64,000 bases of DNA from Bacteroidia bacterium. GTDB taxonomy: Bacteria; Bacteroidota; Bacteroidia; B-17B0; Aurantibacillaceae. A program made the translations under genes and the position numbers. The stretch is from NCBI GenBank assembly GCA_016787705.1, contig JAEUTP010000008.1, forward strand, positions 248,001-312,000, written 5' to 3'. The notes beneath the pieces were generated by a model that did not search any database, was not told where the DNA came from, and saw nothing but the letters and a program-made list of their open reading frames with translations. This document shows, one piece after another, positions 1 through 36,492 of the stretch; the first letter of the stretch is position 1; each line of letters starts with the position of its first letter.

Positions 1-662
1 CCCAAACTATCGTAATTGGTTATTACTTCTTTGTAAGATCTGTTCTCGTTATTGATATACGTGCATTTTGTTTGTCCTGAAGAATATTTTTGGTATTGAA
101 AACTATCCTCGCTAAGCTGAACCTGGTTGCCTAAAATAAAAATAGATTTGTCTTTACTATTATTTGTTTCTTTAAAACGTAACTCTTTTGTAAGATTATT
201 TGCGCTATCGTAACGATAATATCGACTCTCATAATAGTTAAAGCCATCGTGATAACGTTTTAAAATTAAACGTTTATTATTATAAAAATAACTGGTGCTA
301 ACTGTATCGTAAACATAAAAATTAATTATCTGTGTTCCGCCATTGCTTACTTTTCTTCGCTTACGATAAGCCGGTGGGGTGTTAATTTGTTTTTCAATGG
401 TTTGAATGATGGTGGTAAAATAATAGCGGGATAAATTTCCATTGGTATCAAAATCGTACGATTCAATTAAACTTTTATCAACTGCCACTTCAAAATCTTT
501 CTTATCTAAAATATCAAAAGTGATCCTTCGGATATTTTTTGATTTTATAACATCAGGATTAAAACGGTGTTGTTTTTCGAAAGCAGTTTCAGGTGTTGGC
601 AATAACACCTGTGCTTTTGCGAAAGAGCAAAATAAAAAGAATATGAAAATTATTTTATTCAA
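1..662 (-). CDS. Secreted YD-repeat-like hypothetical protein (partial, 3' end off the window)
   Basis: An open frame of about 220 codons runs off the left edge. It begins with a TTG at 662-660 and encodes a clean signal peptide ([17 protein letters not shown]) followed by a hydrophilic Tyr/Asp/Asn-rich chain with phrases such as [14 protein letters not shown] and [12 protein letters not shown]. These resemble the loose YD/RHS-like repeats of Bacteroidota secreted proteins. The TTG lies 8 nt inside the end of the upstream DUF255 gene (its stop is 657-655), so the two are probably co-transcribed and translationally coupled. No ATG is available near the signal peptide, which makes the TTG start the best choice. 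Function is unknown; the YD-repeat resemblance is an inference from composition and spacing only. Confidence 0.7.
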
Positions 663-13081: not shown

Positions 13082-15676
13082 TCAAGACTGTAGCTTGAAT
13101 TTACGAATTCTTTCGATAACAGCAATACCTGTACCAAAAGCCATTATAAGACAGCCCAGCCACAATACATTGATGTAAGGGAACACAAAGGCTTTCATAA
13201 CAATAAAATCTTTATTATTTGAAAGCTTTTCGCTCATAGTTATTTCTATTGTTCCATCATCCGGATTGATTTTCCAGAACACCAATTTTAAGCCTAATTC
13301 ATCTACCACATCTTCTTGTGGTATAACTACATTTTTTTTGATGATAAATTTGGGGTATGCAAAAAAGATCTTTTCATCGGTTGTTTTACATTTTAAAACT
13401 GCAGTCACTTCTAAAAGAGAATCGTTTTTTTCGTATTGCGATTTCGTTAAGTTACTACGCAAAGAATCTATAATCACTAATGCGTTACTTGCAAAAATGG
13501 TATCACCTACATGACCTACATAATTTTTAGCTTCACCAAAAGCATTTTTCTTTTTTGAACTGGTATCAGTATCAATACTCATATTTGCAAAAGTAATATG
13601 TGAGTATATGTCACGACTTAAATAATGTTTAGTTGCCGGCTCAGCAGATGATTGACCCATGCGCGGGTTATTTTTTACGATTGGAACTAATGTAAATTCA
13701 AACTCGGGCTTTTTATTTTTGTCCAGCTTTAAATAATCTACTGTATAAAAAATATCAATGCCTTCGCGCCTTTTTTCTTTGTAAACAATCAAATATGGAC
13801 CCATTGCAACGGTATCACCTTGTGTTAATAAAACGCTTTCCTTGTCATCAAAATCTTTTCCAAGCGCTTCTAATTTTTTATCCGCCATGTTTTTTGCAAG
13901 TGTTACTTTTTTGGATGTGGAAATCAAAGCGCCGATTAATACCATAGCAAAACCAATGTGCGCAATTGCGGCACCACTTTTTGAGACTTTACCTTTTAAG
14001 ACCATTAAATAATAATCAAGATTAGCAAATACGGCAAATAAACCGCTTACCAATAAAGCAGAGAAACCAACAAGATCCCAGGTACCAATGCCCTTAGCTT
14101 CTGTTTTAGTTAAAAAATAAAGTGGGATGCTACAAGCCAAACCAAACAAAATTGAAAGAAGAAAACTGTAAGAGATACGTTTAAAGAATTTTTTCGGATC
14201 TGTTTTTTTATACTTTAAAAATTGTGAAGCGCCTATAAGTATCATTATCAAAATAGCAAACGGCATCATCCAGCTATTGTAAACTGCAACTTTTGGTGGC
14301 GCAAACTCTGTATTGAATAATTTATTGATAACAGGAATGGATGTAAAATAAGTAATGATAAGGCCTGATAATAAAAAAACAAGTGAGCCTAAGAACATCC
14401 AGAACTCGCGTGAGTACAAATCTTCTTCATCTTTTTCTTTTGGAAAATATTTATAGTAAGAAATAAATGTAACAATGCCTGAACCACCAAGCCATAACAT
14501 TAATAAAGCTCGCTTATAGCCGTATAATATTCCAAAAAATAAAATTAATAAGGAAACCATAATGTAAGAAACTCTGAATAACTTATCGTTGATCAGTAAC
14601 ATTACGGTTATGAAAATAAATGTGAGTACGTATAAAACCAATTGGCCTGTCATGCCAAGATCTGTAAAGGCATGCACAGAAGCATTTCCAAGCACACCGC
14701 TTCGTGTTAAAAAGGTTGAATATAATACAAGTAGAAAACCACCAATTGCTAAAAAATGAGTTGTAAATAAAGAGCCGCCTTTGTTTTTATTAATGATCAT
14801 GGTGTGGCCTGCCCCAACTACAATAAGCCATGGAACCAAAGAAGAATTTTCAACCGGATCCCACGCCCAAAAGCCCCCAAAGCTTAATGCCTCGTAGGCC
14901 CAGGCGCCGCCCATTAAAATACCAATGCCTAAAATTAAAATGCAAAAATAAGTCCACGGTAAAGCAATTTTTTGCCATTCGTTATATTTTTTATTCCATA
15001 AAGCGCCAATTGCAAATGCAAAAGGAATTAATGTAGATGAAAAGCCTAAAAATAATGTTGGCGGATGGATGGTCATCCAGTAATTCATTAATAAAGGATT
15101 TAAACCTTTACCATCTAATGTTGCAGGAACCATTCCTTCTTTTCTTAGAAATGGCAGGTTACTAAAATCTGCATGATCTCTTAATAATAAAAAAGGATTA
15201 CTGCCAATTTTATAATCAAATACATAAACGCCAAGTAACATACTTGCTAAAAAAACCTGCACCAAAGCAAAAACCGTCATTACAGGAATTTCCCATTCGC
15301 CTGGTTTAAGTTGACGCTTTAAGATCGTTCCCAAAGCAATGTTCCAGAAAGTCCAAAGTAAAAAACTACCTTCCTGACCTTCCCAAAAGCACGAGAGAAT
15401 ATATTTCATATCCATGCTTGTATTGCTATGCTGATAAACGTATTGATATTCGAAATAATGATTCAACAACATCCAGAACATGGTGCCTATAATTCCAATT
15501 ACAGCAAAACCATGAATATTAAATGCTAAACGGGCCAGCTTTAAAAAAGAAAGGTTTTTTGAAGAAAGATAATACGCAAAAAAAGAAAGAAGCGCGCCTA
15601 CGAAAGAAAGAACAACAAAGGCGTTACCAAGGTTACCAGCCCATAATCTTTCTTGTATATATTGAACACCATTCAT
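13082..15676 (-). CDS. ccmF: Cytochrome c maturation heme lyase CcmF/CcsA-type
   Basis: This 864-residue multi-spanning membrane protein carries the tryptophan-rich heme-handling (WWD) motif: GGAWAYEALSFGGFWAWDPVENSSLVPWL lies at about 255-284 and its key residues are the W/G/D/P/E set. Upstream come family landmarks (CFWEGQEGSFLLWTFW, NYWMTIHPPTLFLGF). A large periplasmic segment precedes the last helix. CcmF ligates heme delivered by CcmE to apocytochromes c on the periplasmic side. It is longer than the roughly 650-residue proteobacterial CcmF because of the extended C-terminal periplasmic region. It is co-transcribed with ccmB, ccmC, ccmD and ccmE upstream, and its product would serve the ActA, ActE and other cytochromes c. 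Confidence 0.93.
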   Translation of the reverse strand: MNGVQYIQERLWAGNLGNAFVVLSFVGALLSFFAYYLSSKNLSFLKLARLAFNIHGFAVIGIIGTMFWMLLNHYFEYQYVYQHSNTSMDMKYILSCFWEGQEGSFLLWTFWNIALGTILKRQLKPGEWEIPVMTVFALVQVFLASMLLGVYVFDYKIGSNPFLLLRDHADFSNLPFLRKEGMVPATLDGKGLNPLLMNYWMTIHPPTLFLGFSSTLIPFAFAIGALWNKKYNEWQKIALPWTYFCILILGIGILMGGAWAYEALSFGGFWAWDPVENSSLVPWLIVVGAGHTMIINKNKGGSLFTTHFLAIGGFLLVLYSTFLTRSGVLGNASVHAFTDLGMTGQLVLYVLTFIFITVMLLINDKLFRVSYIMVSLLILFFGILYGYKRALLMLWLGGSGIVTFISYYKYFPKEKDEEDLYSREFWMFLGSLVFLLSGLIITYFTSIPVINKLFNTEFAPPKVAVYNSWMMPFAILIMILIGASQFLKYKKTDPKKFFKRISYSFLLSILFGLACSIPLYFLTKTEAKGIGTWDLVGFSALLVSGLFAVFANLDYYLMVLKGKVSKSGAAIAHIGFAMVLIGALISTSKKVTLAKNMADKKLEALGKDFDDKESVLLTQGDTVAMGPYLIVYKEKRREGIDIFYTVDYLKLDKNKKPEFEFTLVPIVKNNPRMGQSSAEPATKHYLSRDIYSHITFANMSIDTDTSSKKKNAFGEAKNYVGHVGDTIFASNALVIIDSLRSNLTKSQYEKNDSLLEVTAVLKCKTTDEKIFFAYPKFIIKKNVVIPQEDVVDELGLKLVFWKINPDDGTIEITMSEKLSNNKDFIVMKAFVFPYINVLWLGCLIMAFGTGIAVIERIRKFKLQS

Positions 15677-15685
15677 ATATCAGCA

Positions 15686-16078
15686 CTAGTTTAACTGTGC
15701 TTGTGCTTTACCGTCGTTATATTTACTTGGGCACTTCATTAAAATATCGTTAGCATGAAATTCATTGCCATCCATTTTTCCGATCAAAACAATTTGTTCG
15801 CTTTTCTCAAAATCCTGTGGCTTACTTTTGTGAAGCACTACTTGTTTGCTTATGCCTTTGTTATCAATAAGGGTGAATATAAATTGATCAGCATTAATTT
15901 TCGGATCGTAAATTTGAGGTTGATTTTTATCCAGCTTTCCAACTACATGGTATTCTTTTTCAGGATTAGAAATCGCTTGAGTAAAATCAGCATAAGTACT
16001 TGTGTTTTTTAACGACACAAATATTACACCAATTGCAATAGCAATAACAACAATGCCAACGATGTGTAATTTTTTCAT
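15686..16078 (-). CDS. ccmE: Cytochrome c maturation heme chaperone CcmE, Cys-type
   Basis: This 130-residue protein has one N-terminal membrane anchor (about 5-25) and a CcmE-like OB-fold (YHVVGKLDKNQPQIYD, FIFTLIDNKGISKQVVLH, QIVLIGKMDGNEFHANDILMKCPSKY). At the place of the heme-binding HxxxY of proteobacterial CcmE it has CPSKY, that is CxxxY, with Cys in place of the heme-linking His. Cys-type CcmE is established in some archaea and Desulfovibrio (System I*). CcmE passes heme from CcmC to CcmF in the periplasm. It lies between ccmF and ccmD with spacings of 9 nt and 1 nt. Confidence 0.9.
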   Translation of the reverse strand: MKKLHIVGIVVIAIAIGVIFVSLKNTSTYADFTQAISNPEKEYHVVGKLDKNQPQIYDPKINADQFIFTLIDNKGISKQVVLHKSKPQDFEKSEQIVLIGKMDGNEFHANDILMKCPSKYNDGKAQAQLN

Positions 16079-16079
16079 T

Positions 16080-16301
16080 TTACTTATTATTAATTTGTTT
16101 TTCGAGCTTGTTTACTTTACGTTCAAGCACAATTAAAAAAATAACCAAGGCTACAAATATCATCCCAATAACCGTTATAACAACGTAAATTTTTCCGTCG
16201 CTACGAAATGTATCTGCCATTTCGGGTGCTGTAGCTGTTTCCTGCGCTGAAGAAAAAAGCGCCGATAACACAAAAACTAAACTTAAAATTTTTTTAATCA
16301 T
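16080..16301 (-). CDS. ccmD: CcmD-like small membrane protein
   Basis: This 73-residue protein has a signal-peptide-like N-terminus (MIKKILSLVFVLSALFSSAQ), a short periplasmic stretch, one membrane helix (VVITVIGMIFVALVIFLIVLE) and a basic cytoplasmic tail (RKVNKLEKQINNK). CcmD proteins are short single-helix adaptors that help release holo-CcmE from the CcmC complex. Identification rests on size, topology and its place between ccmC (8-nt overlap) and ccmE, since the family is poorly conserved. The cleavable-looking N-terminus ahead of the helix differs from the proteobacterial form. Confidence 0.8.
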   Translation of the reverse strand: MIKKILSLVFVLSALFSSAQETATAPEMADTFRSDGKIYVVITVIGMIFVALVIFLIVLERKVNKLEKQINNK

Positions 16302-16953
16302 TTAATTTGTTTTTAATAAAACTAATTTTGTTCTTAAGATCAAATAACCAGTAACTAAAAAATATCCAGCCAATAACCGCAGGGTAAAACACCATACGCA
16401 TGTTATTATCCATATCGTACTTTGCAAAAGCAGGATTGCCACCATTGCCCGGGTGCAACGAATCTGTTAATCGTGGCAATACCATTATAAAAACATTCAT
16501 CATTACAAATGCAAACACATTATATACTGCCGAAATTCTTGCGCGTTTTATTTCATCATCAACTGAAAAACGTAAAATAAAATAAGCTAGGTAAATTAAA
16601 ATACTAATTGCCACACCGTTTAATTTCGGATCCTGAAATGTCCACCAGGTACCCCAGGTATATTTAGCCCACATACAGCCCGTTGTTAAACCAGGCATAG
16701 CAAAGAAAAAACCAATTATTGCAGCGTTGTATGCTTTAGAATCGTTAGCTAAATTATTTTTTGTAAGTGTGAATAAACTTTGAATTAAAGATACTGTCAT
16801 CATAAACAGCATAGCAAACCAAATAGGTACGTGATAATAAACATTACGAATTGTTTCGTTTAAAATATCCAAACGCGGCACCGGATTTAATAAACCCCAA
16901 ACAAGAGTGTATGAAATTAAAATTACCGAAAGTATTTTGTACCAGTTTTTCAT
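16294..16953 (-). CDS. ccmC: Heme exporter/lyase subunit CcmC
   Basis: This 219-residue protein has about six membrane helices and the WWD heme-handling motif (WAKYTWGTWWTFQDPKL at about 125-141). It also has the CcmC-type periplasmic histidines (VYYHVPIWFAM near residue 40, LTDSLHPGNGG near 165). CcmC loads heme onto CcmE. Length fits CcmC (about 220-245) rather than the longer CcmF or CcsA. It overlaps ccmD by 8 nt. A 98-bp repeat-containing spacer separates it from the upstream ccmB gene. Confidence 0.92.
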   Translation of the reverse strand: MKNWYKILSVILISYTLVWGLLNPVPRLDILNETIRNVYYHVPIWFAMLFMMTVSLIQSLFTLTKNNLANDSKAYNAAIIGFFFAMPGLTTGCMWAKYTWGTWWTFQDPKLNGVAISILIYLAYFILRFSVDDEIKRARISAVYNVFAFVMMNVFIMVLPRLTDSLHPGNGGNPAFAKYDMDNNMRMVFYPAVIGWIFFSYWLFDLKNKISFIKNKLND

Positions 16954-17051: not shown

Positions 17052-17702
17052 TTAATCGCGCCAAAGATACGGAAATAATAGGAAAGAAAGAGCAATGGTT
17101 AAAACATTTAAGGCTATTAAAATGCCAATAAAATTTAAACCAACGCCGGCCCACTCAATACCATCTACAGCCTGTTTGCTAATGCGAATAACTACCAAAA
17201 TAAGCGGCATTAACACCGGAAAACTTAAAATGCTCATGATAGCAAAGTTACCATTTGCCTTACTGGCAATAGCACTCATAAGACTTAAAATAGCCGCCAA
17301 GCCGGTTGAAGCAAGTGTTAAAACCAATAGAAACAAACTAAAATTCTCTACTTCATTTTTTATAAAAAAGCCGTAAAAAAAGAAAGTAATGAGGCTTAAC
17401 GCCAACATAAATACCATATTGTAGATGGTTTTAGCAACAATAAACTGTGTTGGAGAATAATGTAAATAATTATAAAGTGCCTGGCCCCCGGTTTCTTTTA
17501 AAAAGCTTTTTCCGCTTATAGTAACAGATGTAAATAAAGTAATGATCCAGAATAAAGCATTCCATGTTGGTTTATCGAGATGGCCTTTAAAACATAAAGC
17601 ACTCACAAAAATGGTTCCAACAACATACACCACTACACCGCCAATTGTGGATTTTTGACGAAACTCCAACAGTAACTCTTTTTTTATGAGTGATAAGATC
17701 AT
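17052..17702 (-). CDS. ccmB: Heme exporter membrane subunit CcmB
   Basis: This 216-residue integral membrane protein has about six helices and a CcmB-type start (MILSLIKKELLLEFRQKSTI) followed by the FALCFKG-like first loop. CcmB is the membrane part of the CcmAB ABC transporter, which powers release of holo-CcmE from CcmC. No CcmA ATPase gene is adjacent, which is unusual compared with proteobacterial ccm clusters. The ATGA overlap with purD (4 nt) shows it is translated from the purD message. Confidence 0.9.
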   Translation of the reverse strand: MILSLIKKELLLEFRQKSTIGGVVVYVVGTIFVSALCFKGHLDKPTWNALFWIITLFTSVTISGKSFLKETGGQALYNYLHYSPTQFIVAKTIYNMVFMLALSLITFFFYGFFIKNEVENFSLFLLVLTLASTGLAAILSLMSAIASKANGNFAIMSILSFPVLMPLILVVIRISKQAVDGIEWAGVGLNFIGILIALNVLTIALSFLLFPYLWRD

Positions 17703-24955: not shown

Positions 24956-26779
24956 TTAGTGACTATCTCCATCCTGTTCTCCTTCTTCAAGAGGAACTGT
25001 TTGAAGTACGAAATCTTTTTCTTTACCAGGTTTAGAATAATCATAAGCCCAACGATGAACTACAGGTAATTTACCAGGCCAGTTACCGTGAATATTAGCC
25101 ATTGGAGTTGTCCACTCTAAGGTATTTGAATTCCAAGGGTTTTGCGGAGCTCTTTCACCACGGAAAATACTGTAAAAGAAGTTGAATAAGAATATACCCT
25201 GACCTAACGCACCAATAATAGCGCAAATTGTAACAATCTCGTTAATATCAACCAAATTGTCAAACATCGGGAAGTTACTGTTAGTATAATAACGACGAGG
25301 TACACCAGCTAATCCTAAAAAGTGCATTGGAAAAAACACGCCGTATGCTGCAATTAAAGTTATCCAAAAGTGCGCATAACCTAATTTTTTGTTCATCATA
25401 CGTAAGAACATTTTTGGGAACCAGTGGTAAACACCTGCGAACATACCAAAGATGGCACTTAAACCCATTACAATGTGGAAGTGGGCAACCACAAAGTAAG
25501 TATCGTGTACGTTAATATCTAAAGTAGAATCGGCAAGGATAATACCGGTTACACCTCCGGTAATAAATGAAGAAACCAAGCCTACAGAGAACAACATAGC
25601 AGGCGTAAATTGCAAATTACCTTTCCACATTGTGGTAATGTAGTTAAATGCTTTTACCGCAGATGGAATTGCAATTAATAAAGTAGTGAAAACGAATACA
25701 GATCCTAAAAATGGATTCATTCCTGTCATAAACATATGGTGTCCCCATACGATGAATGATAAGAAGCCAATCGCTAACATTGAACCGATCATAGCACGGT
25801 AACCGAAAATTGGTTTACGTGAATTTGTGGAGATAACTTCTGAAGTAATACCTAAAGCCGGTAATAATACGATGTATACCTCAGGGTGACCTAAGAACCA
25901 GAATAAGTGTTCGAATAATACAGGGCTACCACCAACGTTATCTAAAGGACGGCCACCAATGTAGATATCCGATAAGTAGAATGAAGTACCTAAGCTTCTA
26001 TCGCAAAGTAATAATACAACGCAAGAAACAAGAACAGGGAAAGATAATACACCTAAAATAGCAGTGATCAAAAAGGCCCAAACAGTAAGCGGCATTCTTG
26101 TCATTTTCATTCCTTTGGTACGCAAGTTAATTACAGTTACAACGTAATTTATACCTCCTAACAATGATGAAACAACAAATAAGGTCATTGACATTAACCA
26201 TAAAGTCATACCTAATTTAGAACCTGGGATAGCTTCAGGTAATGCAGAAAGCGGTGGATAAATTGTCCAACCGGCAGAAGCAGGACCGTCATCAATAAAT
26301 AATGAAGCAGTCATAATAACGCTTGATAAAAAGAAGAACCAGTATGAAAGCATATTTAAAAAGCCTGAAGCCATATCACGCGCACCAACCTGGTAAGGAA
26401 TTAAAAGGTTAGCAAATGTACCACTTAAACCGCCTGTTAATACGAAGAATACCATGATAGTGCCATGGATAGTAACAAGAGCCAGATACATATTAGGATC
26501 AAGAATACCGTCTTTACCCCATTTGTCGCCTAACATTGCATTAATGAATCCAAATTTTTCGCCCGGCCATGCTAATTGCATACGGAAGATAACCGACATT
26601 GTCATTGCAATTACTGCCATTACAATAGCTGTAATTAAAAACTGACGAGAGATCATTTTGTGATCCATACTGAAGACATATTTCGAAACGAAACTTTCTT
26701 CATGATCATCGTGATCATGCACATGGTCGTGATGAGCCAAATGTTCTTTTTCTAATTCTGAATTTTTTACGGTAGCCAT
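24956..26779 (-). CDS. ctaD: Cytochrome c oxidase subunit I
   Basis: This 607-residue heme-copper oxidase catalytic subunit has about 12 membrane helices. Visible ligands are the low-spin heme His in TIHGTIMVFF (H105), the CuB His in FWFLGHPEVYIVLLP with the cross-linked Tyr, the His pair in WGHHMFMTGM, and the heme a/a3 His residues in HDTYFVVAHFHIVMG. The HPEVY motif marks A-family oxidases. It reduces oxygen to water and pumps protons at the inner membrane. The cytoplasmic N-terminus is unusually His-rich (seven His in residues 13-26). It is the last gene of the act-cox operon, followed by a strong terminator. Confidence 0.96.
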   Translation of the reverse strand: MATVKNSELEKEHLAHHDHVHDHDDHEESFVSKYVFSMDHKMISRQFLITAIVMAVIAMTMSVIFRMQLAWPGEKFGFINAMLGDKWGKDGILDPNMYLALVTIHGTIMVFFVLTGGLSGTFANLLIPYQVGARDMASGFLNMLSYWFFFLSSVIMTASLFIDDGPASAGWTIYPPLSALPEAIPGSKLGMTLWLMSMTLFVVSSLLGGINYVVTVINLRTKGMKMTRMPLTVWAFLITAILGVLSFPVLVSCVVLLLCDRSLGTSFYLSDIYIGGRPLDNVGGSPVLFEHLFWFLGHPEVYIVLLPALGITSEVISTNSRKPIFGYRAMIGSMLAIGFLSFIVWGHHMFMTGMNPFLGSVFVFTTLLIAIPSAVKAFNYITTMWKGNLQFTPAMLFSVGLVSSFITGGVTGIILADSTLDINVHDTYFVVAHFHIVMGLSAIFGMFAGVYHWFPKMFLRMMNKKLGYAHFWITLIAAYGVFFPMHFLGLAGVPRRYYTNSNFPMFDNLVDINEIVTICAIIGALGQGIFLFNFFYSIFRGERAPQNPWNSNTLEWTTPMANIHGNWPGKLPVVHRWAYDYSKPGKEKDFVLQTVPLEEGEQDGDSH

Positions 26780-26809
26780 CTTTATTTTATTTAGAATATT
26801 TTTTAATTA

Positions 26810-27844
26810 TTATTTTGTAGCAACTGCTGTTTTAAATGTTTTTTGTTTTGCGATCCACGCATTGTAATCTGCCTCAGTATCAACAATAACATTCATTTGC
26901 ATATTGTAGTGCGATGCTCCACAAATTTTATTGCATAATAAAAGGTAATCAAACTCCACAGGCTCTTTGCCAAATTTAGCGCGTTGAGCGTTAATGCCTG
27001 CCATCATTTTTACAACGTACGGATCTTTTTTCATTTGAGCAGTTGTTTTTGTCGGAGTAAATTTAAATGTGGTGATCATGCCCGGTACACAGTTCATTTG
27101 TGCGCGGAAGTGCGGTAAGTAAGCTGAGTGAATTACATCACGGCTGCGCATATTTAATTCAATCTCTCTACCAACAGGAATGTGAAATTCGTTCTTCACT
27201 AAAATATCATCATTACCCATAACGTCTAAAGTATCCATACCTACAGCGTTTCCTCCATCAATCTGGCGATAATCTGTTTCGCCCAATTTACCATCTTTAC
27301 CGGCGTAACGAGCTGTCCAGTCAAACTGTTTAGCGTATAACTCCACTATCACACGATCAGGTTTGTTAGCGTCTTCCATGATCTCATTCCAATACTTTAA
27401 ACCAAAAATAATAATGAAAGCTAAGGCTACGGCAGGAATAATGGTCCACGCCATCTCTAATTTATTATTATGTGTAATATAAGAAGCTTTTGTTTTAGAT
27501 GTTCCACGGTATTTGTAGGCAAACCAGAATAAGAAAAAATTTGTTACAAGGAATACAAATGTAATAAGGTATATGTTCGCGTCCCACAGGGTATCGATCT
27601 TAGCACCATGAACTGAGGCGGCTGGAGGTAAAGAGCGATCCATCCAGCGGTTTACCTGCCAAAAAAAGAAAATAAAAAAGAAGGCCATGAAAGCCAGCAG
27701 GGCTTTACCCATCATATTATTGTCGGTTTCGGTTATTTGCCATTCTTTTGTCTTTTTTAAGCCGCGGCTTAACTCAATGACTCTTAATAATTGGTGTCCC
27801 GCAATTACTAATAAAACGATGGCTAACAGTACTAAAAAATTCAT
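26810..27844 (-). CDS. ctaC: Cytochrome c oxidase subunit II
   Basis: This 344-residue protein has an N-terminal membrane segment, then the two COX2 helices (about 45-65, 90-110) and a periplasmic cupredoxin domain. The CuA site is at the C-terminus: CNKICGASHYNMQM gives the Cys-Cys-His-Met set. An upstream His ligand is in DVIHSAYLPHFRAQMNCVPG. The Glu normally found between the cysteines (CxExCG) is Lys here. It receives electrons from cytochrome c or directly from the ACIII monoheme subunit. It lies between actF and ctaD with spacings of 58 nt and 30 nt. Confidence 0.95.
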   Translation of the reverse strand: MNFLVLLAIVLLVIAGHQLLRVIELSRGLKKTKEWQITETDNNMMGKALLAFMAFFFIFFFWQVNRWMDRSLPPAASVHGAKIDTLWDANIYLITFVFLVTNFFLFWFAYKYRGTSKTKASYITHNNKLEMAWTIIPAVALAFIIIFGLKYWNEIMEDANKPDRVIVELYAKQFDWTARYAGKDGKLGETDYRQIDGGNAVGMDTLDVMGNDDILVKNEFHIPVGREIELNMRSRDVIHSAYLPHFRAQMNCVPGMITTFKFTPTKTTAQMKKDPYVVKMMAGINAQRAKFGKEPVEFDYLLLCNKICGASHYNMQMNVIVDTEADYNAWIAKQKTFKTAVATK

Positions 27845-27902
27845 TTTATTTAATTTTTATATTTTTAATTCTATTTTCTTTATTTAAAAATGCAATTTGT
27901 AA

Positions 27903-29144
27903 CTAGGTTGAATGGTGTAAGCTTTCGTTTAAGAAAGGGTGATTTTTAACCATTAACGGTGCTTTTGCAAGTGCATTTAAAACAACATAAATAAACAAAC
28001 CTAAGAAGAAAAAGAAATTACCAAATTCCATCCAGCTTAAACCTTGCCAGTGGTGGCCAACGGTTCCCGGCATTACGATCATAATAACATCCATATAGTG
28101 ACCAATAAAGATCAATGTACCAACAAACATTAAGAAGAAGAAGTTACGTTTGCTGTCGCGGCTCATTAACATTACCATTGGGAATGCAAAGTTCACAAAG
28201 AAAACAGTCCACATTAAGCCTTTAAAGTTTTCCCAACGTGTTTGGAAATAAATTACCTCTTCAGGAATATCTGCATACCAGATCAACATAAATTGAGAGA
28301 AGTATAGGTATGTCCATAAAAAAGAGATGGCGAACATCCATTTACCTAGATCGTGAATGGTACTTTCCGTTACAAATTCTAAATAACCTAATTTTTTTAG
28401 CCAGATAACTAAAACTGTAATAGCCACTAATGCGCTGATCCACATACCTGAAAAGATATACCATCCAAATAATGTAGAGAACCAGTGTGTATCAATACTC
28501 ATTAACCAATCCCATGATGAAGTAGAAGAGGTAACAGCAAATAACACCATAAACCATGCGCCTAATTTGATGTTCTTCCAGTGGAAAGAGTTATTAATAT
28601 CTACATCTAATTTGTCTGCTGCTAAAGAGTTAGCACGTAATTTAAAGGTGAAATACATCCAACCAATCATGTATAAGATCGTTCTTAACCACCAGAACCA
28701 GCCAAAGTAACCGATCTTACCTGCAATAACCTCATCATAATTAGCACTAGTTGGGTCTGCAATGCCATCAGCCATCCAATGATAGATATGATGAAAATGG
28801 AATTGACCAAGAATGAAAAGTAACATCATAAAGCTTAATCCATAAGGCAAGTACATAGTTACAGCCTCAATAACACGTTTAACGGTAGTTGACCAACCTG
28901 CTTCTGCAGCGTATTGCAATCCTAAAAAGAAAGCAGCGGCCAAAGATAAAGCCATGAAAAAGAACGAGCCGGCAAATACATTGCTCCATGCACGAGTACC
29001 TGCATGATAATGTTCGGCTTCGTCTCCTTTATCAAAAACGAACATCAATATTATTGATAATAATCCTACTGCCATTAAAACAAATGAGAACATCTTTGCT
29101 TTAGACGGTACTGTAAAATTTAATTTTTCGGTATTAGTATTCAT
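27903..29144 (-). CDS. actF: Alternative complex III subunit ActF
   Basis: This 413-residue protein has about ten membrane helices and a long hydrophobic C-terminal half. It matches the quinol:cytochrome c oxidoreductase membrane subunit of the ActF family in composition and position, with landmarks YHAGTRAWSNVFAGSFFF near the N-terminus, GKIGYFGWFWWLRTILYMIGW, and QGLSWMEFGNFFFFLGLFIYV. ActF and ActC are NrfD-like membrane subunits thought to bind quinol and conduct protons. Assignment rests on gene order (between actE and coxB) and family resemblance. Confidence 0.92.
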   Translation of the reverse strand: MNTNTEKLNFTVPSKAKMFSFVLMAVGLLSIILMFVFDKGDEAEHYHAGTRAWSNVFAGSFFFMALSLAAAFFLGLQYAAEAGWSTTVKRVIEAVTMYLPYGLSFMMLLFILGQFHFHHIYHWMADGIADPTSANYDEVIAGKIGYFGWFWWLRTILYMIGWMYFTFKLRANSLAADKLDVDINNSFHWKNIKLGAWFMVLFAVTSSTSSWDWLMSIDTHWFSTLFGWYIFSGMWISALVAITVLVIWLKKLGYLEFVTESTIHDLGKWMFAISFLWTYLYFSQFMLIWYADIPEEVIYFQTRWENFKGLMWTVFFVNFAFPMVMLMSRDSKRNFFFLMFVGTLIFIGHYMDVIMIVMPGTVGHHWQGLSWMEFGNFFFFLGLFIYVVLNALAKAPLMVKNHPFLNESLHHST

Positions 29145-29169
29145 AGTCTCTCTTAAATCTTAATTAATA

Positions 29170-29817
29170 TTAGTGGTGTGCAGGTGCTGTTGTAGCTGTT
29201 ACAGCGGCAACTGTTTTAGTACTGTCGCTTGCAACTTCTTTAGGACCTTGTAATTTTTGTACATAAACAACCAATTTCCAGCGCTCTAATTGAGTTAACT
29301 GACCAGCATGAGAACCCATAGAGCCTTTACCATAAGTAATGGTATGGAAAATTTTTCCTTCCGGTAAATTTTTCAAAGTACCGTTATATGCAGGAGGCGG
29401 ACCAGGTAATTTACCACCAACTTTTCCGTCGCCGGCACCTGTAGCACCATGACAGTGTACACAGAATTTTCCGTATAACACTTCCCCTTCTTTTTCAAAC
29501 TCTTCGCGTTGGCTGGCATATGGGTTGTGTAAATTTAAACCTGCAGCATCATATCCTTCTGTAGTATTCGGATAAGCATATGGTAAATATCCACGTGCAA
29601 CTGTACCTGCTACAGGCAGCATAGCGTTGTCAACAGTATCACCATCAACAGTGTGGGTTTGGTAATATTCTAACGAAGGAGAGCGATACATATCCGGCAT
29701 AAATTCAATACCAGGGCTGTTTGCATCCTTTTTACCACAAGATGTAAAACCCATCATTACCAAACCTGTAAGGGCTGAGGCAACAACAAATTTTATGGTT
29801 GTATAATGTTTTTTCAT
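29170..29817 (-). CDS. actE: Alternative complex III monoheme cytochrome c lipoprotein ActE
   Basis: This 215-residue lipoprotein has a signal sequence with lipobox (MMGFTSCG, Cys27), so it is tethered to the periplasmic face of the membrane. The single c-heme site is CVHCH (residues 119-123), followed by GATGAGDGKVGGKLPGPPPAY. The axial Met is probably in GKGSMGSHAGQL. It accepts electrons from the ActA hemes and passes them to the oxidase CuA. Its C-terminal Ala/Thr/His-rich tail is likely unstructured. It is 4 nt downstream of actD. Confidence 0.94.
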   Translation of the reverse strand: MKKHYTTIKFVVASALTGLVMMGFTSCGKKDANSPGIEFMPDMYRSPSLEYYQTHTVDGDTVDNAMLPVAGTVARGYLPYAYPNTTEGYDAAGLNLHNPYASQREEFEKEGEVLYGKFCVHCHGATGAGDGKVGGKLPGPPPAYNGTLKNLPEGKIFHTITYGKGSMGSHAGQLTQLERWKLVVYVQKLQGPKEVASDSTKTVAAVTATTAPAHH

Positions 29818-29821
29818 ACTA

Positions 29822-30388
29822 TTAATGTGTTTCTTCTAATACATATTTTGGTTCAACAACAAAAGAGCCTTTGTGATTCACTTCCTCAGCACCATTTGCT
29901 TTCATGATCTCTTCAGCTTTTTTAGTCTGCTCATCATTTAACTCTAAATAAATTAAGAATTTATCGTCTGTTGTTCTTGGATCAGGATTTTTTGCCTTAG
30001 CACCAGGAATTAACCAGCAACGTAAAAAATACGTTAATGCCATACCGTGAGCTGCACAAAACACTGTACTTTCAAAAGTAATAGGAATGAAAGCAGGAAT
30101 GTTCATGTAATAAGCGAAACTTGGTTTCCCACCAATATCCTGAGGCCAATCAGAAACCATCATGTACCACATCATTAATGTAGCTAAAGATGTTCCTGTT
30201 ATACCATAAATAAAAGCGCAAATAGCGATGCGTGTTCTTGGAACACCAATTACACCATCAATACCATGGATAGGCATTGGAGAGAATACTTCTTTAATAC
30301 GGATACCTGCTGATCTTAGCTTTGCACAAGCTTCCAGTAGTGGCACTTCATCGCCAAATACACCGTGGATTATATGTTTATTTGCCAT
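29822..30388 (-). CDS. actD: Alternative complex III subunit ActD (DUF3341)
   Basis: This 188-residue protein has an N-terminal DUF3341 cytoplasmic domain (IIHGVFGDEVPLLEACAKLRSAGIRIKEVFSPMPIHGID) followed by two membrane helices (about 50-72 and 92-118) and a short C-terminal soluble part. DUF3341 is the diagnostic domain of ActD. It has no cofactor and is thought to bridge ActC and ActF on the cytoplasmic side. It lies between actC and actE. Confidence 0.94.
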   Translation of the reverse strand: MANKHIIHGVFGDEVPLLEACAKLRSAGIRIKEVFSPMPIHGIDGVIGVPRTRIAICAFIYGITGTSLATLMMWYMMVSDWPQDIGGKPSFAYYMNIPAFIPITFESTVFCAAHGMALTYFLRCWLIPGAKAKNPDPRTTDDKFLIYLELNDEQTKKAEEIMKANGAEEVNHKGSFVVEPKYVLEETH

Positions 30389-30409
30389 ATTGTTTAGTTC
30401 AGTTTTTTA

Positions 30410-31798
30410 TTAATGATGAGTATTATGTTTAGCCGCTTCTTTTTGAGATTGGCCTGATGATTTTAAAATTGTTTTTAACTCAGCCTGCGCAATAACAGGG
30501 AAGTAACGCGAAAACAATAAGAAGAAGGTGCCAAACATACCAATTGTTCCAACAAAGATTCCAATATCAATAAATGAAGGTGTGTAAGTATTCCATGTAG
30601 ATGGCAAATACGTACGGCATAATGTTGGAACGATAATTACAAAACGCTCAAACCACATACCAATATTAATTACGATAGAGATGATGAAAGTAAACCAAAT
30701 ACTTGTTCTCCATTTTTTAACCCAGAACAATTGTGGTGAGAATACGTTACAAGTCATCATACACCAATAGCTCCAAGCCATTGGACCCGTTGCGCGATTT
30801 AAGAACGCATATTGTTCCCACTCTACTCCGGAGTACCATGCTACGAATAACTCAGTTAAATAAGCCACACCTACAATTGAACCAGTAACGATGATTACAA
30901 TGTTCATGTACTCAATGTGTTTAATGGTAACATAAGCTTCTAATTTGTAAATTTTACGAACTACTAACATTAACGTTAATACCATCGCAAAACCCGAAAA
31001 AACCGCACCCGATACGAAGTATGGAGGGAAGATGGTCGTGTGCCATCCCGGAACTACCGAAGTAGCAAAGTCAAAAGATACAATTGAGTGTACCGAGAAT
31101 ACTAATGGTGTAGATAAGCCTGCAAGTACTAAAGATACTTCTTCAAAACGGCTCCAGTGACGGGCACTTCCACCCCAGCCAAATGATAAGATACCGTAAA
31201 ATTTCTTTTGCCAAGGTTTGATAACACGGTCGCGGATCATACCAAAATCAGGAATTAAACCAATGTACCAGAAAACAATTGATACAGTTGCGTAAGTTGA
31301 TACTGCAAACACGTCCCACAATAAAGGCGAGTTAAAGTTAGGCCACAAACTACCGAATTGATTTGGTAAAGGGAATAACATATAATCTAACCAAGGGCGG
31401 CCAGTGTGTAACAATACAAATATAGCCGCGCAAAGTACAGCGAAGATCGTCATCGCTTCTGCAGAACGGTTAATTGCCATACGCCATTTTTGACGAAACA
31501 ATAATAACACTGCCGAGATCAAAGTACCGGCATGACCAATACCGATCCACCATACGAAGTTGGTGATATCCCAAGCCCAATCTACCCCATTGTTAGATCC
31601 CCAGGCACCAATACCTACACCAATGGTATAAGCCAAACATCCTATTCCCCAAAGGAAAGATAAGGCGCAAAGAGTGATAAGCAAGTACCAACCTCTTGCG
31701 GCTTTCCCTTCTATAGGCGCAATAATATCATCAGTAATCTGGCGGTAACTTTTATCGCCAAGTATTAACGGTATCCTAATTTCTGATTCTGCGTGCAT
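30410..31798 (-). CDS. actC: Alternative complex III NrfD-like membrane subunit ActC
   Basis: About 462 residues with roughly ten membrane helices of the NrfD/PsrC family, the largest membrane subunit of ACIII. Landmarks are the FVWWIGIGHAGTLISAVLLL segment with the characteristic GHAGT, then FSVHSIVSFDFATSVVPGWH and PPYFVSGAVFSG, and YWCMMTCNVFSPQ. It forms half of the quinol-binding and putative proton-conducting core with ActF. I chose the ATG at 31798; an in-frame TTG six bases upstream (31804) is an alternative. Confidence 0.94.
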   Translation of the reverse strand: MHAESEIRIPLILGDKSYRQITDDIIAPIEGKAARGWYLLITLCALSFLWGIGCLAYTIGVGIGAWGSNNGVDWAWDITNFVWWIGIGHAGTLISAVLLLFRQKWRMAINRSAEAMTIFAVLCAAIFVLLHTGRPWLDYMLFPLPNQFGSLWPNFNSPLLWDVFAVSTYATVSIVFWYIGLIPDFGMIRDRVIKPWQKKFYGILSFGWGGSARHWSRFEEVSLVLAGLSTPLVFSVHSIVSFDFATSVVPGWHTTIFPPYFVSGAVFSGFAMVLTLMLVVRKIYKLEAYVTIKHIEYMNIVIIVTGSIVGVAYLTELFVAWYSGVEWEQYAFLNRATGPMAWSYWCMMTCNVFSPQLFWVKKWRTSIWFTFIISIVINIGMWFERFVIIVPTLCRTYLPSTWNTYTPSFIDIGIFVGTIGMFGTFFLLFSRYFPVIAQAELKTILKSSGQSQKEAAKHNTHH

Positions 31799-31829
31799 AC
31801 TCAATTTTTAATTTTTTTTATACTAACTA

Positions 31830-34800
31830 TTATGAATGTTTTTCTTCGTTGTGAGTACCTTCATGTTTCTCATCATGCTTTACAGCGGCATGTTTTACTT
31901 CACGAATGATCTTCTCATCCTGGTTTCTTACTTTTACTTTGTAAGAAGTTGTTGGTTTAACACCTACATCTTCTAATAAGAAATAAGTTCTTTCATCTGC
32001 TCTTTCTTTAGATACCCAAGATTCGGAATCGTTAAGGTCGCCAAAAATAATTGCATCAGTTGAACAAGCAGATTGACAAGCAGTTTTAACAGCACCATCT
32101 TTTAATGGTTGACCTAATTTTTTTGCTTCTAATTTACCAGCTTGTAATTTTTGCTGACACATTGAACATTTTTCCATTACACCACGGCTACGAACAACCA
32201 CATCTGGATTTAAAACCATACGGCCTAATTCCATTTGAGCAGGGTTAACATCTGCAAACCATTCGTTAGTGTTATAATTAAACCAGTTAAAACGACGAAC
32301 TTTGAAAGGACAGTTGTTAGCACAGTAACGGGTACCAATACAACGGTTGTAAGTCATCATGTTCAATCCTTCTGTACTGTGGCTGGTAGCTAATACCGGA
32401 CAAACAGTTTCACAAGGTGCGTGGTTACAGTGTTGGCACATCATAGGCTGGAAAGTTACCTGCGGATTAGCAGAAGGATTTTCCATCTGGATGTAAGTTT
32501 CTTTAGAACCTAAATGCTCTTCTTTTCCTTTTTCAAGGTTCATATCAGAGCTGTAGTAGCGGTCAATACGCAACCAATGCATATCGCGTGTTTTTGTAAC
32601 CTCTGTTTTACCAACAACTGCAACGTTGTTTTCAGAAGTACAAGCTACAACGCAAGCGCCGCAGCCAAAACATAAGTTCATATCAATGCTCATTCCCCAT
32701 TTGTGACCAGGACGTGGGAAAGCATTCCAAAGATCGATATCGTTAACATGTTTTTTACCGCCACCATGAACAGGAAGTTCCGTTGCAGGATTCCAATATT
32801 CTTTATCGTTCTCTTTAAATTCTTTTAATGATACCTCACGCAATAAAAATTCTTCACGACCCATAATAGTGTGTTGAATTTGTGTTGCAGCAAAGCGGTG
32901 AGTTTCTGTAGTTGGTTTAATAGATACGTTTGCAACCATAGGTTGAATTGTATCGTTTATCATTGTTAAGAATTGGAAAGCGTTAACACCAACACCATTC
33001 GCAACTTTTAAAGTTTCTGCAGTGCGGCCATAACCAACTGCTAAGCCAATTGTACCTTTTGCCTGACCAGGTTGAGGATAAACAGGAACTTTTACAGTGA
33101 TACCGTTTACAGTTAATTCAACAATAGATCCATCAATATCCTGACGTAACATTTCATTCAACTTCATCTCTTTTACATCAAGAGGGCTCATTGTAATGTA
33201 ATTATCCCAGGTAACTTTAGAGATAGGATCTGGCAACTCCATTAACCAAGGGTTATTGGTGTAGTTACCATTACCAATTCCAATTTTTTCGTAAACAAAT
33301 AATTCAATACCACCACCTTTAACTGAAGTTGCCATTGTAGCAGCTTTGTTATAATCAGGTGTAGGTAATGTTTCAGAAACAGGGCTTATAACAGCTTCTA
33401 CTTTTGGATTTGCATGTACTGCTGCTGTAGTATCTGTATTTTCAAGCGTTGCAACACCATTTAACGCGAAATTTCCTGTAGAATCCGCTTTAGGAAGAGG
33501 TGCAACAGTAACTTCATTTTTAACGTAAGTTTTTACAGCGCCATCATGTAATGCATGAGCCCAGAAAGTTGGAAAATCTGAATGCTTACCTTGATTAGGG
33601 AACACACGGTTATTCCAGAACCCTTGTAAATACGCTAAGTAATTTGACTTAATACCAGACCATTTTAATAATGTATCCTGAAACTGACGGGTACCTTCGT
33701 GACGAGGTGCTGCAAAAATAGGATTAATGGTTGGTTGTTGTAATGTAAACATGCCGCGTTTTGGATTAGCATCGCCCCAAGCTTCTAAATAGTGGTGATC
33801 AGGAACAACGATGTCAGCCATTTGAGCTGTTTCATCCAATACATTTGCAAAAGATATTTTTGTAGTAACCTTACCATACGCTGCTGCAAATTTTAAAGAT
33901 GCAGGCGCAGTATAAACCGGATTACAGTTATAAGTCATTAAAACATTTACTTTACCGTTAGCCATATCAGCTACCAATTCAGCAAATTCTTTATCATCAC
34001 TTTGTTTTAAATTTAAATAATTCTCAACGTCTACAGTTTTACCATAGTTGTCAAGCATTTTGTTGATACCGTTAACTAAAGTTTGAATACCTTCATCGTT
34101 AACACCCGATACAACTAATGATTTTCCTTTGTGTGCAATTAATTTATCAGCAACTTTTTTAATAGCAGCAGCTGCTTCAGGACTTGAGATCTTTTCATCA
34201 CCTAAAACTTTTGCATTTGAAGTTGCGTGAGCAATTTCATTAAATAAAGCAACAGTTACTTTTCCTAATTCGCTTGGCTTAACCATGTAACGGTAATCGG
34301 CATTAGCACCGGTTAACGACATGTTGCTTTCGAAATGGAAGTGTTGGCTCATCTCCGGATTTGCTTTAGAAACCTTACGGCCTTTAGCATATTGTTTCGA
34401 GAATTCTTCGCCAGAGATCCAGTTACCTAAAAAGTCGCAGGCAATACCCACAACAATTTTTGCATCACTAAAATCGTAAGAAGAAACTACAGATTTACCA
34501 AAAACATTTTTATTTGCTTTGGTTAACGCGTTATAAGAAATAGCATCGTAAGTAACGTGTTTTGTATTTGGATGCTTCTCCATAAACTCAGCAATAACTG
34601 CTTTTGTAGATGGACTGATAATGGTAGAAGTTAAGATGCGGATAGTTGCGCCGTTCATTGCAGCTGCAGCTGCATCATCAGCAACTTTCCAGCTTGCATC
34701 TTGTTTTTTAACGATTGGGCCACGTAAACGTGCGCCATCATAAATACCTAAAACCGATGCCTGAACACGTGCGTTTGTACCGCTGTGTGTGATACCACCA

Positions 34801-35171
34801 AGATCATTTCCTTCAATTTTGATAGGACGTCCTTCGCGCGTTTTTACAAGGATAGATGCATAATCATGCCCATCATAAAATGTAGTAGCATAAAAGTTAG
34901 CAACACCTGGTGTAACCTCTTCAGGTTTTACAACGTAAGGAATAGATTTCATAACCGGCGTTTCGCAAGCTGCTAAAGCAACTGCTGCCGTTGAAAATCC
35001 CATTACCTTTAAAAAATCACGGCGCGATGTGCCTTCTTGTTCGGCTTCATCACTACCCAAAAACTCATCCATAGGAAGAGGAGTAGCAAACTCATTTTTT
35101 TGTTGCTCTTGAAACTCCGGACTATTATGTAGTTCAGGTAGACCTTTCCAGTATTTTTTCGACATAGACAT
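31830..35171 (-). CDS. actB: Alternative complex III iron-sulfur subunit ActB
   Basis: This 1113-residue protein is a fused version of a molybdopterin-oxidoreductase-like half (about 1-720, without visible Mo-binding signatures) and a ferredoxin-like half. A twin-arginine signal (TSRRDFLKVMGF at about 48-60) is followed by a lipobox-like Cys (AALAACE). The C-terminal half holds four Cys clusters: CFGCGACVVAC, CQHCNHAPCETVCP, CIGTRYCANNCPF, and CSMCQQK with CQSACSTDA. They would ligate the [4Fe-4S]/[3Fe-4S] chain. ActB is exported through Tat to the periplasmic side and links quinol oxidation to the ActA hemes. The start overlaps no gene; actC follows after 32 nt. Confidence 0.95.
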   Translation of the reverse strand: MSMSKKYWKGLPELHNSPEFQEQQKNEFATPLPMDEFLGSDEAEQEGTSRRDFLKVMGFSTAAVALAACETPVMKSIPYVVKPEEVTPGVANFYATTFYDGHDYASILVKTREGRPIKIEGNDLGGITHSGTNARVQASVLGIYDGARLRGPIVKKQDASWKVADDAAAAAMNGATIRILTSTIISPSTKAVIAEFMEKHPNTKHVTYDAISYNALTKANKNVFGKSVVSSYDFSDAKIVVGIACDFLGNWISGEEFSKQYAKGRKVSKANPEMSQHFHFESNMSLTGANADYRYMVKPSELGKVTVALFNEIAHATSNAKVLGDEKISSPEAAAAIKKVADKLIAHKGKSLVVSGVNDEGIQTLVNGINKMLDNYGKTVDVENYLNLKQSDDKEFAELVADMANGKVNVLMTYNCNPVYTAPASLKFAAAYGKVTTKISFANVLDETAQMADIVVPDHHYLEAWGDANPKRGMFTLQQPTINPIFAAPRHEGTRQFQDTLLKWSGIKSNYLAYLQGFWNNRVFPNQGKHSDFPTFWAHALHDGAVKTYVKNEVTVAPLPKADSTGNFALNGVATLENTDTTAAVHANPKVEAVISPVSETLPTPDYNKAATMATSVKGGGIELFVYEKIGIGNGNYTNNPWLMELPDPISKVTWDNYITMSPLDVKEMKLNEMLRQDIDGSIVELTVNGITVKVPVYPQPGQAKGTIGLAVGYGRTAETLKVANGVGVNAFQFLTMINDTIQPMVANVSIKPTTETHRFAATQIQHTIMGREEFLLREVSLKEFKENDKEYWNPATELPVHGGGKKHVNDIDLWNAFPRPGHKWGMSIDMNLCFGCGACVVACTSENNVAVVGKTEVTKTRDMHWLRIDRYYSSDMNLEKGKEEHLGSKETYIQMENPSANPQVTFQPMMCQHCNHAPCETVCPVLATSHSTEGLNMMTYNRCIGTRYCANNCPFKVRRFNWFNYNTNEWFADVNPAQMELGRMVLNPDVVVRSRGVMEKCSMCQQKLQAGKLEAKKLGQPLKDGAVKTACQSACSTDAIIFGDLNDSESWVSKERADERTYFLLEDVGVKPTTSYKVKVRNQDEKIIREVKHAAVKHDEKHEGTHNEEKHS

Positions 35172-35202
35172 TAGTTATATAAATTCTTACTGTAACTTAT
35201 TA

Positions 35203-36492
35203 TTAATAGTGACACTTACCACACTCTAAACCACCAATCTTATCAACGGTAAATTTAACATCGTACTGACCAGCGTATTTTTCTTTTAATGCTTTGTGTA
35301 AGCGATCGTAGTAAGCATTACCTGCCATTGCTACTTCAGTTTTACGGTGGCACTCAATACACCATTTCATGGTTAAAGGTGATTTTTGTTCTGCAACGGT
35401 CATTTCTTTTACATTACCATGGCAAGTAGCACATTCAATTTTGCCAACTACAACGTGTTGTGAGTGGTTAAAATAAACATGGTCAGGTAAGTTGTGAACT
35501 TTGATCCATTGTAAAGGATTTTGTTTGCTGTTATCGTAAGTTCCTTTTTTAGGATCAAAACCTGCAGCTTCATAAATTTTTGCAATTTCTTTTTCTTTGT
35601 AAACCGGGCCGCTTTGAATGCCTTTGTGACAGTTCATACAAATGTTTACAGTTGGAATACCCGCGTGGCGTGATTTTTCAACTGAACTGTGGCAATACTG
35701 ACAAGCGATTTCGTTATCGCCTGCGTGTAATTTGTGAGAGAATTTAATTGGCTGTTCAGGTTTGTAACCTTTTTGAGTTTCCCAATCGTAATACACACCA
35801 ATATCAAAACAAGCATCCCAGCAGCTTTTCATTCCGCCAAAAGCAATTATTATTACAAATACACCAACTAAACGACGGTTATTACCCATCCAGTATTTTA
35901 CCTCCTGGCCAAAGGTCATATCAGGATTTTCAGCCTTACCTTCTGCACGGTTACTTGCATTTTGCATAGAAGCTCTAACGCTACGCAAAGCACCAATTAA
36001 AATTGCTAAAATAACAATAGCACCCAAAATTAAATAAAGAGGCTCAATACCACCATTTCCTTCAGATGCTTCTGCGCCATCGCCACCAACCGTTGAAGAT
36101 GGCAAAGCGCCTGCAACTACAGGTGCTGGTGCTTTTAAAAATGCCAAAATCGAATTAACGTCTTTGTCGGATAACTGTCCTTCAAACACAGTCATAGCAG
36201 CTTTTCCGTTGTCATTAAAAATTTTGTTTGCGTAAGCATCGCCAGATTTGATCAACTTCTCGTTGTTCAGAATCCACTTGTTTAACCAATCGCCTTTTGG
36301 CGCGCGGTCAAAAATACCCTTAAGACCCGGACCGGTTAATTTTTGGTCGGTGTGTGAAGCGTGACAAACAGCGCAATTAAGCTTAAATAATTTTTCTCCG
36401 TCCTGGGCTGTAATTTTAGAAGAGAAAGCAAAAACCGCGAAAACTACTGCTAGCAAGGTTTTTACTGATACCTGAGATATGTGGTTTTTCAT
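35203..36492 (-). CDS. actA: Alternative complex III multiheme cytochrome c ActA with extra N-terminal cytochrome domain
   Basis: About 429 residues. A signal peptide is followed by a class I cytochrome c domain (CAVCH at about residues 40-44, with a possible axial Met in KAAMTVF). Next comes a low-complexity linker, a membrane helix (EPLYLILGAIVILAILIGALR, about 150-171), and then the ActA core with five CxxCH motifs: CQYCH, CMNCH, CATCH, CIECH and the terminal CGKCHY. That makes six heme sites in one chain. The start chosen is the ATG at 36492 (MKNHISQVS), because the 23 residues upstream have no signal-peptide role. It is the first gene of the act-cox operon. Confidence 0.92.
   Translation of the reverse strand: MKNHISQVSVKTLLAVVFAVFAFSSKITAQDGEKLFKLNCAVCHASHTDQKLTGPGLKGIFDRAPKGDWLNKWILNNEKLIKSGDAYANKIFNDNGKAAMTVFEGQLSDKDVNSILAFLKAPAPVVAGALPSSTVGGDGAEASEGNGGIEPLYLILGAIVILAILIGALRSVRASMQNASNRAEGKAENPDMTFGQEVKYWMGNNRRLVGVFVIIIAFGGMKSCWDACFDIGVYYDWETQKGYKPEQPIKFSHKLHAGDNEIACQYCHSSVEKSRHAGIPTVNICMNCHKGIQSGPVYKEKEIAKIYEAAGFDPKKGTYDNSKQNPLQWIKVHNLPDHVYFNHSQHVVVGKIECATCHGNVKEMTVAEQKSPLTMKWCIECHRKTEVAMAGNAYYDRLHKALKEKYAGQYDVKFTVDKIGGLECGKCHY

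Follow-up and report, generated by a model that had tools for sequence, protein, structure and literature searches.

The window, a 64,000-nucleotide stretch of a Bacteroidia genome (contig JAEUTP010000008.1, positions 248,001 to 312,000), carries a same-strand row of cytochrome c maturation (ccm) genes in the order purD, ccmB, ccmC, ccmD, ccmE, ccmF and a DUF2520 gene. CcmB, C, D and F were all identified by Pfam matches above cut-off, as was CcmE (PF03100, 38.8 bits against a cut-off of 24.6), and the grouping of ccmB, C, D, E and F reported in a first-pass annotation of the sequence is borne out:

17052..17702, reverse strand: ccmB, 216 aa (PF03379, 31.4 bits, cut-off 24.9)
16294..16953, reverse strand: ccmC, 219 aa (PF01578, 60.9 bits), with the WWD-like stretch WGTWWTFQDPKLNG
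16080..16301, reverse strand: ccmD (CcmD_alt family), 73 aa (PF20077, 69.7 bits)
15686..16078, reverse strand: ccmE, 130 aa, comprising an N-terminal helix (model residues 3-23), an OB-fold domain and the motif CPSKY
15719..15733, reverse strand: CPSKY codons of ccmE (residues 116-120), from the ORF, motif census, and profile and structural alignments
13082..15676, reverse strand: ccmF, 864 aa (PF01578 and PF16327), with a WWD motif

The ccmB product also matches the general family ABC2_membrane (28.8 bits), and the WWD-like stretch of CcmC recurs exactly in 23 of 75 pattern-selected ORFs, as counted among the 12 commonest forms listed. The layout of the ccm genes is conserved among relatives and partly split: of 80 near loci, 79 have C-D-E in order, 70 have CcmF after E, and 63 show the full B-C-D-E-F order, with some stretches stopping at a contig edge. 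purD lies directly before ccmB in seven of the 80. Longer gaps, suggestive of inserted genes, separate ccmD from ccmE in locus L246 and ccmB from ccmC in locus L189. With purD upstream and the DUF2520 gene downstream, ccmA, ccmG and ccmH lie outside the ccm row.

By ORF translation CcmE ends in ...ILMKCPSKYNDGKAQAQLN, and the segment KCPSKYN (residues 115-121) comes after the last beta strand. Cys116 within it occupies the heme-binding position, that of His130 in E. coli CcmE and of Cys127 in Desulfovibrio vulgaris CcmE. This placement had been proposed at first pass, and the profile and structural alignments agree on it, neither setting the Cys outside the site. In the PDB, a CcmE profile of 76 rows matched 2kct (D. 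vulgaris), 8ce8, 1sr3 (E. coli) and 1j6q, placing KCPSKY on the E. coli residues K-H-D-E-N-Y and on the KCP of 2kct; 75 of the rows had been selected by the pattern CPS[KR]Y, and the invariance of the motif there is no independent count. Since the profile also matched an OB-fold in a nuclear pore protein (9hcj), a match to CcmE structures is not specific by itself, and phmmer with the single CcmE query found no CcmE in the PDB. The predicted CcmE model (mean pLDDT 90.1) matched 1lm0, 1j6q, 1sr3, 2kct and 8ce8 amid many other OB-folds. On 1sr3 it superposed over 86 residues (model 27..116, chain 35..130; Z 8.9, rmsd 2.5), the final aligned pair being model 116 and chain 130. On 2kct it superposed over 84 residues (model 16..119, chain 43..130; Z 9.2, rmsd 3.2), and the end pair of model 119 and chain 130 sets C116 on C127 if the last three residues are gapless. 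Because unrelated OB-folds reach equal scores against the model (best Z 11.0), we took the family assignment from Pfam and the cluster, and used superposition only to place the Cys.

Among relatives in the phylum that have a CcmE, the Cys form is the norm and no local variant. The first-pass annotation had suggested comparing CcmE across Bacteroidota; among 126 genomes of the phylum the motif reads CPSKY in 125 and CPSRY in one (L190), with His in none, and retention of CPSKY to this extent puts the Cys motif beyond chance. This census was drawn from PF03100 matches, not by motif, and covers the better-scoring listed matches among the 253 of 395 phylum genomes and 240 of 295 genomes of the class that have one; its 140 loci yield 126 distinct proteins, which correspond to 126 genomes by hand count. 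No CcmE match of any kind was obtained in the remaining 142 of the 395. The best 80 near loci likewise all carry CPSKY, in a scan that partly selects for the motif (one of its six peptide patterns contains it). Two genomes, G062 and G294, have two CcmE matches each, and their second copies were left out of the census. The variant system that had been suspected in Bacteroidota is therefore present here as a Cys-type system, but it is not special to this cluster.

These counts bear on a reading in which the Cys protein has decayed or is a side paralogue, cytochrome maturation being left to System II or to another CcmE of the His type. In this genome, which is 99.94% complete, the PF03100 search returned the CPSKY protein as the sole CcmE match, leaving no His-type HxxxY CcmE of classical System I, and ResB of System II gave no match with a model that finds it in five of 14 control genomes. 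On these two grounds, maturation by another CcmE or by System II was rejected. With Cys in all 126 census genomes and the C-D-E order kept in 79 near loci, the paralogue reading is largely refuted and hardly credible.

CcmH (PF03918) was not found over cut-off in the genome, where two weak matches occur (best E 0.105); the same model is over cut-off in four of 14 control genomes, including E. coli. Of the 395 genomes in the phylum sample, four have a match over cut-off and 11 have one with E no worse than 0.001; nine of the 11 carry CcmH-like proteins that are possibly diverged CcmH. In these nine genomes (L129-L136, L138, L140) the proteins contain one or two CcmH-like domains, with CxCGxC or similar followed by YGG, and score 20 to 31 bits with PF03918. 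Most have zinc ribbons at the N-terminus together with a hydrophobic stretch, the zinc ribbon not being seen in L131 and L140. At least five of the genomes (G333, G188, G353, G132 and G224) have a CPSKY CcmE. Two further matches (L137, L139) looked unrelated and, by eye, sensor-kinase-like, and were set aside. The reported lack of ccmH thus holds at cut-off for this genome but is not diagnostic: PMC3601427 states that CcmH loss is not characteristic of System I*, and says that about one third of bacteria with variant CcmE have CcmH (its wording for this third is "System I CcmE", which we take in context to mean the variant), and weak CcmH-like proteins occur in the nine phylum genomes. For ccmG, the reported absence stands for the row, but genome-wide absence cannot be called, as the dsbE model gives 13 thioredoxin-like matches, none over cut-off. 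With two DsbD_TM matches over cut-off, a supply of reductant is possible.

The absence of ccmA likewise holds for the cluster and is doubtful for the genome as a whole. A detached ATPase on the same contig, about 393 kb from ccmE, may be the missing gene:

C23:657541-658158 (contig coordinates, outside the window), reverse strand: ccmA candidate, a 211-aa ABC ATPase with the signature FSSGMKQRLKL, beside lpxA

A second ABC ATPase, with the signature YSGGMRQR, comes after it. The generic ccmA model TIGR01189 does not support the candidate: none of its 45 ABC matches in the genome is over cut-off, the candidate ranks ninth among them, and the model also matches in 14 of 14 control genomes. In NCBIfam the candidate scores higher with GldA (104.7 bits, cut-off 402.6) than with CcmA (93.2 bits, cut-off 131.6). 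Such results fit a reading in which there is no dedicated CcmA, CcmB acting alone or with a borrowed general ABC ATPase and the lpxA-side protein being otherwise employed, for example in a Gld-like transporter. So does the pattern-based finding that an ABC gene directly upstream of ccmB or ccmC is missing from all 80 near loci and from 34 of 40 broader ones. In the other six broader loci an ABC ATPase with the signature [YF]SSGMKQR stands directly before ccmB or ccmC; a narrower ABC pattern found no ABC gene beside ccmB, and a wider one found these six. A profile built from the six adjacent ATPases, which does not include the candidate, nevertheless picks it out: among the ORFs of this genome's 15 best TIGR01189 loci, it scores 172 bits and the runner-up 115.

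Evidence from the class points the same way. A class-wide profile of seven ATPases (the candidate, five of the six adjacent ones and a non-adjacent one from L180) gave matches better than 1e-44, a threshold fixed after looking, in 204 of the 240 CcmE-bearing genomes versus nine of the 55 that lack CcmE. Seven of those nine are less than 90% complete. The Fisher p for this co-occurrence across the 295 genomes is 2e-22, from a hand tally of related genomes that are not independent. lpxA lies directly beside the ATPase in eight of the ten best class loci (L251-L260, L251 being this genome); it is displaced in L257 and was not found in L256. A strong match is missing from 36 of the 240 CcmE genomes, a point on the side of there being no dedicated CcmA, and the assignment of the candidate is therefore not general. 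The genomes of one group (f92/g208) are small (about 1.5 to 2.3 Mb) and have CcmE but no strong match to the candidate. On balance we consider the absence of a dedicated CcmA unlikely, and ccmA, missing from the cluster, is perhaps encoded beside lpxA.

CcmF is the largest protein of the row. Its model (mean pLDDT 86.3) superposed on Thermus CcmF (6zmq) over 573 residues (Z 34.0, rmsd 3.9), and in a structure search the matches standing clearly above the others were CcmF and CcsBA, followed at lower scores by bd oxidases. His 204, 291, 335 and 573 are invariant in all 60 aligned rows; in the alignment with 6zmq the first three are each paired with a His, and the fourth lies within a weak second stretch. 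We infer that they correspond one to one to P-His1, TM-His1, P-His2 and TM-His2, terms taken from PMC10663686. About 245 residues before the last helix (about 590-834) form a large periplasmic region that is mostly beta and probably accounts for the extra length relative to Thermus CcmF (660 aa). No conserved Cys pair was found in this region. A thiol reductase built into CcmF was considered and is unsupported, as no Cys is invariant in the 60 rows (the best, at residue 96, is kept in 50). We also considered a broader proposal: that Bacteroidota with c-type cytochromes use a Cys-CcmE pathway mostly without CcmH, that ccmA is detached from ccmB in this class, and that the enlarged beta region of CcmF took over the docking of apocytochromes from CcmH. 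Taken as one, these statements strike us as distinctly improbable.

Likely substrates are encoded nearby, in an alternative complex III/oxidase cluster at 24959-36492 of the window (reverse strand) that comprises COX1, COX2, ActD, an NrfD protein, an iron-sulfur/molybdopterin-like protein and two c-type cytochromes, the latter being the likely Ccm substrates:

29173..29817, reverse strand: monoheme c-type cytochrome of the alternative complex III cluster, with one CXXCH (PF13442, 44.9 bits)
35206..36492, reverse strand: c-type cytochrome of the alternative complex III cluster with six CXXCH, from the CXXCH count and domain matches

Genome-wide, the c-type cytochrome domain PF13442 gives 11 matches, seven of them over cut-off.

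The best explanation of the locus as a whole, and one we hold to be very probable, is that the ccmE product serves as heme chaperone in cytochrome c maturation of the System I* (Cys-type) kind, an identity suggested at first pass and upheld by the Cys at the heme site and the lack of a CcmH over cut-off. NCBIfam scores count against it: the CcmE model gives 31.8 bits against a cut-off of 126, TIGR01191 gives CcmC 72.3 bits, under its cut-off of 186, the CcmF/NrfE model gives 176 bits against 569, and CcmB has no match. By analogy with characterised relatives, CcmA and CcmB (with ccmA encoded elsewhere), CcmC and CcmD would load heme onto CcmE, where Cys116 of CPSKY would bind it instead of His130, probably via a vinyl group of the heme, and Tyr120 would be a likely iron ligand. 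The heme would then pass to CcmF, which would attach it to the CXXCH motifs of apocytochromes, for example those encoded in the nearby alternative complex III cluster, with no recognisable CcmH involved.

The covalent step in this scheme is disputed because D. vulgaris CcmE is reported, in the available text of PMC3884852, to bind ferric heme non-covalently through C127. Cys116 could accordingly be an axial ligand only, with no covalent intermediate. Set against that report are the covalent heme carried by the Cys-type CcmE of Desulfovibrio (PMC3601427) and the heme-stainable CcmE of Methanosarcina acetivorans (PMC9084895), as the consulted portions of these papers describe them, and we regard purely non-covalent binding as somewhat unlikely.

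Among the titles and abstract openings listed, we found no literature on Cys-type CcmE in Bacteroidota, although Allen 2006 and Goddard 2010 may already name Bacteroidetes. The literature, as represented in the portions consulted, treats the Cys-type heme chaperone as a trait of archaea and some bacteria, and here it is the sole form in 126 genomes of a large bacterial phylum. A Cys-CcmE phylum would offer ordinary aerobic hosts in which to ask how the heme-Cys adduct breaks and whether CcmH is dispensable. For this window itself, the annotation is made precise rather than surprising.

One close likeness is to the System I* of Desulfovibrio (PMC3601427, PDB 2kct), with a Cys at the CcmE heme site in CPSKY, the commonest variant form. 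According to the available part of PMC3601427, this motif is the majority form of variant CcmE (25 of 36 bacterial genomes), the variant is named in delta-proteobacteria, chloroflexi and firmicutes, with no mention there of Bacteroidota, and the Desulfovibrio Cys-type CcmE is functional, its operon having been tested in E. coli. That system works without CcmH and CcmG, and here no CcmH is over cut-off in the genome; a possible difference is that the ccmA candidate here lies far from ccmBCDEF. CcmABCEF of M. acetivorans, as described in the consulted text of PMC9084895, also includes a functional Cys-type (CXXXY) CcmE, lacks CcmH and is not encoded entirely in a single operon; unlike the present system, it has no CcmD, and its CcmF is split into F1 and F2, where here it is a single 864-aa protein. 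With the classical System I of E. coli (PDB 1sr3, 8ce8) the cluster shares CcmB, C, D, E and F and the OB-fold of CcmE, but it has Cys116 in place of His130, and the E. coli system requires CcmG and CcmH (PMC3601427, available part). The cluster is best described as an ordinary System I* member, and its form looks to be the usual one for the phylum.
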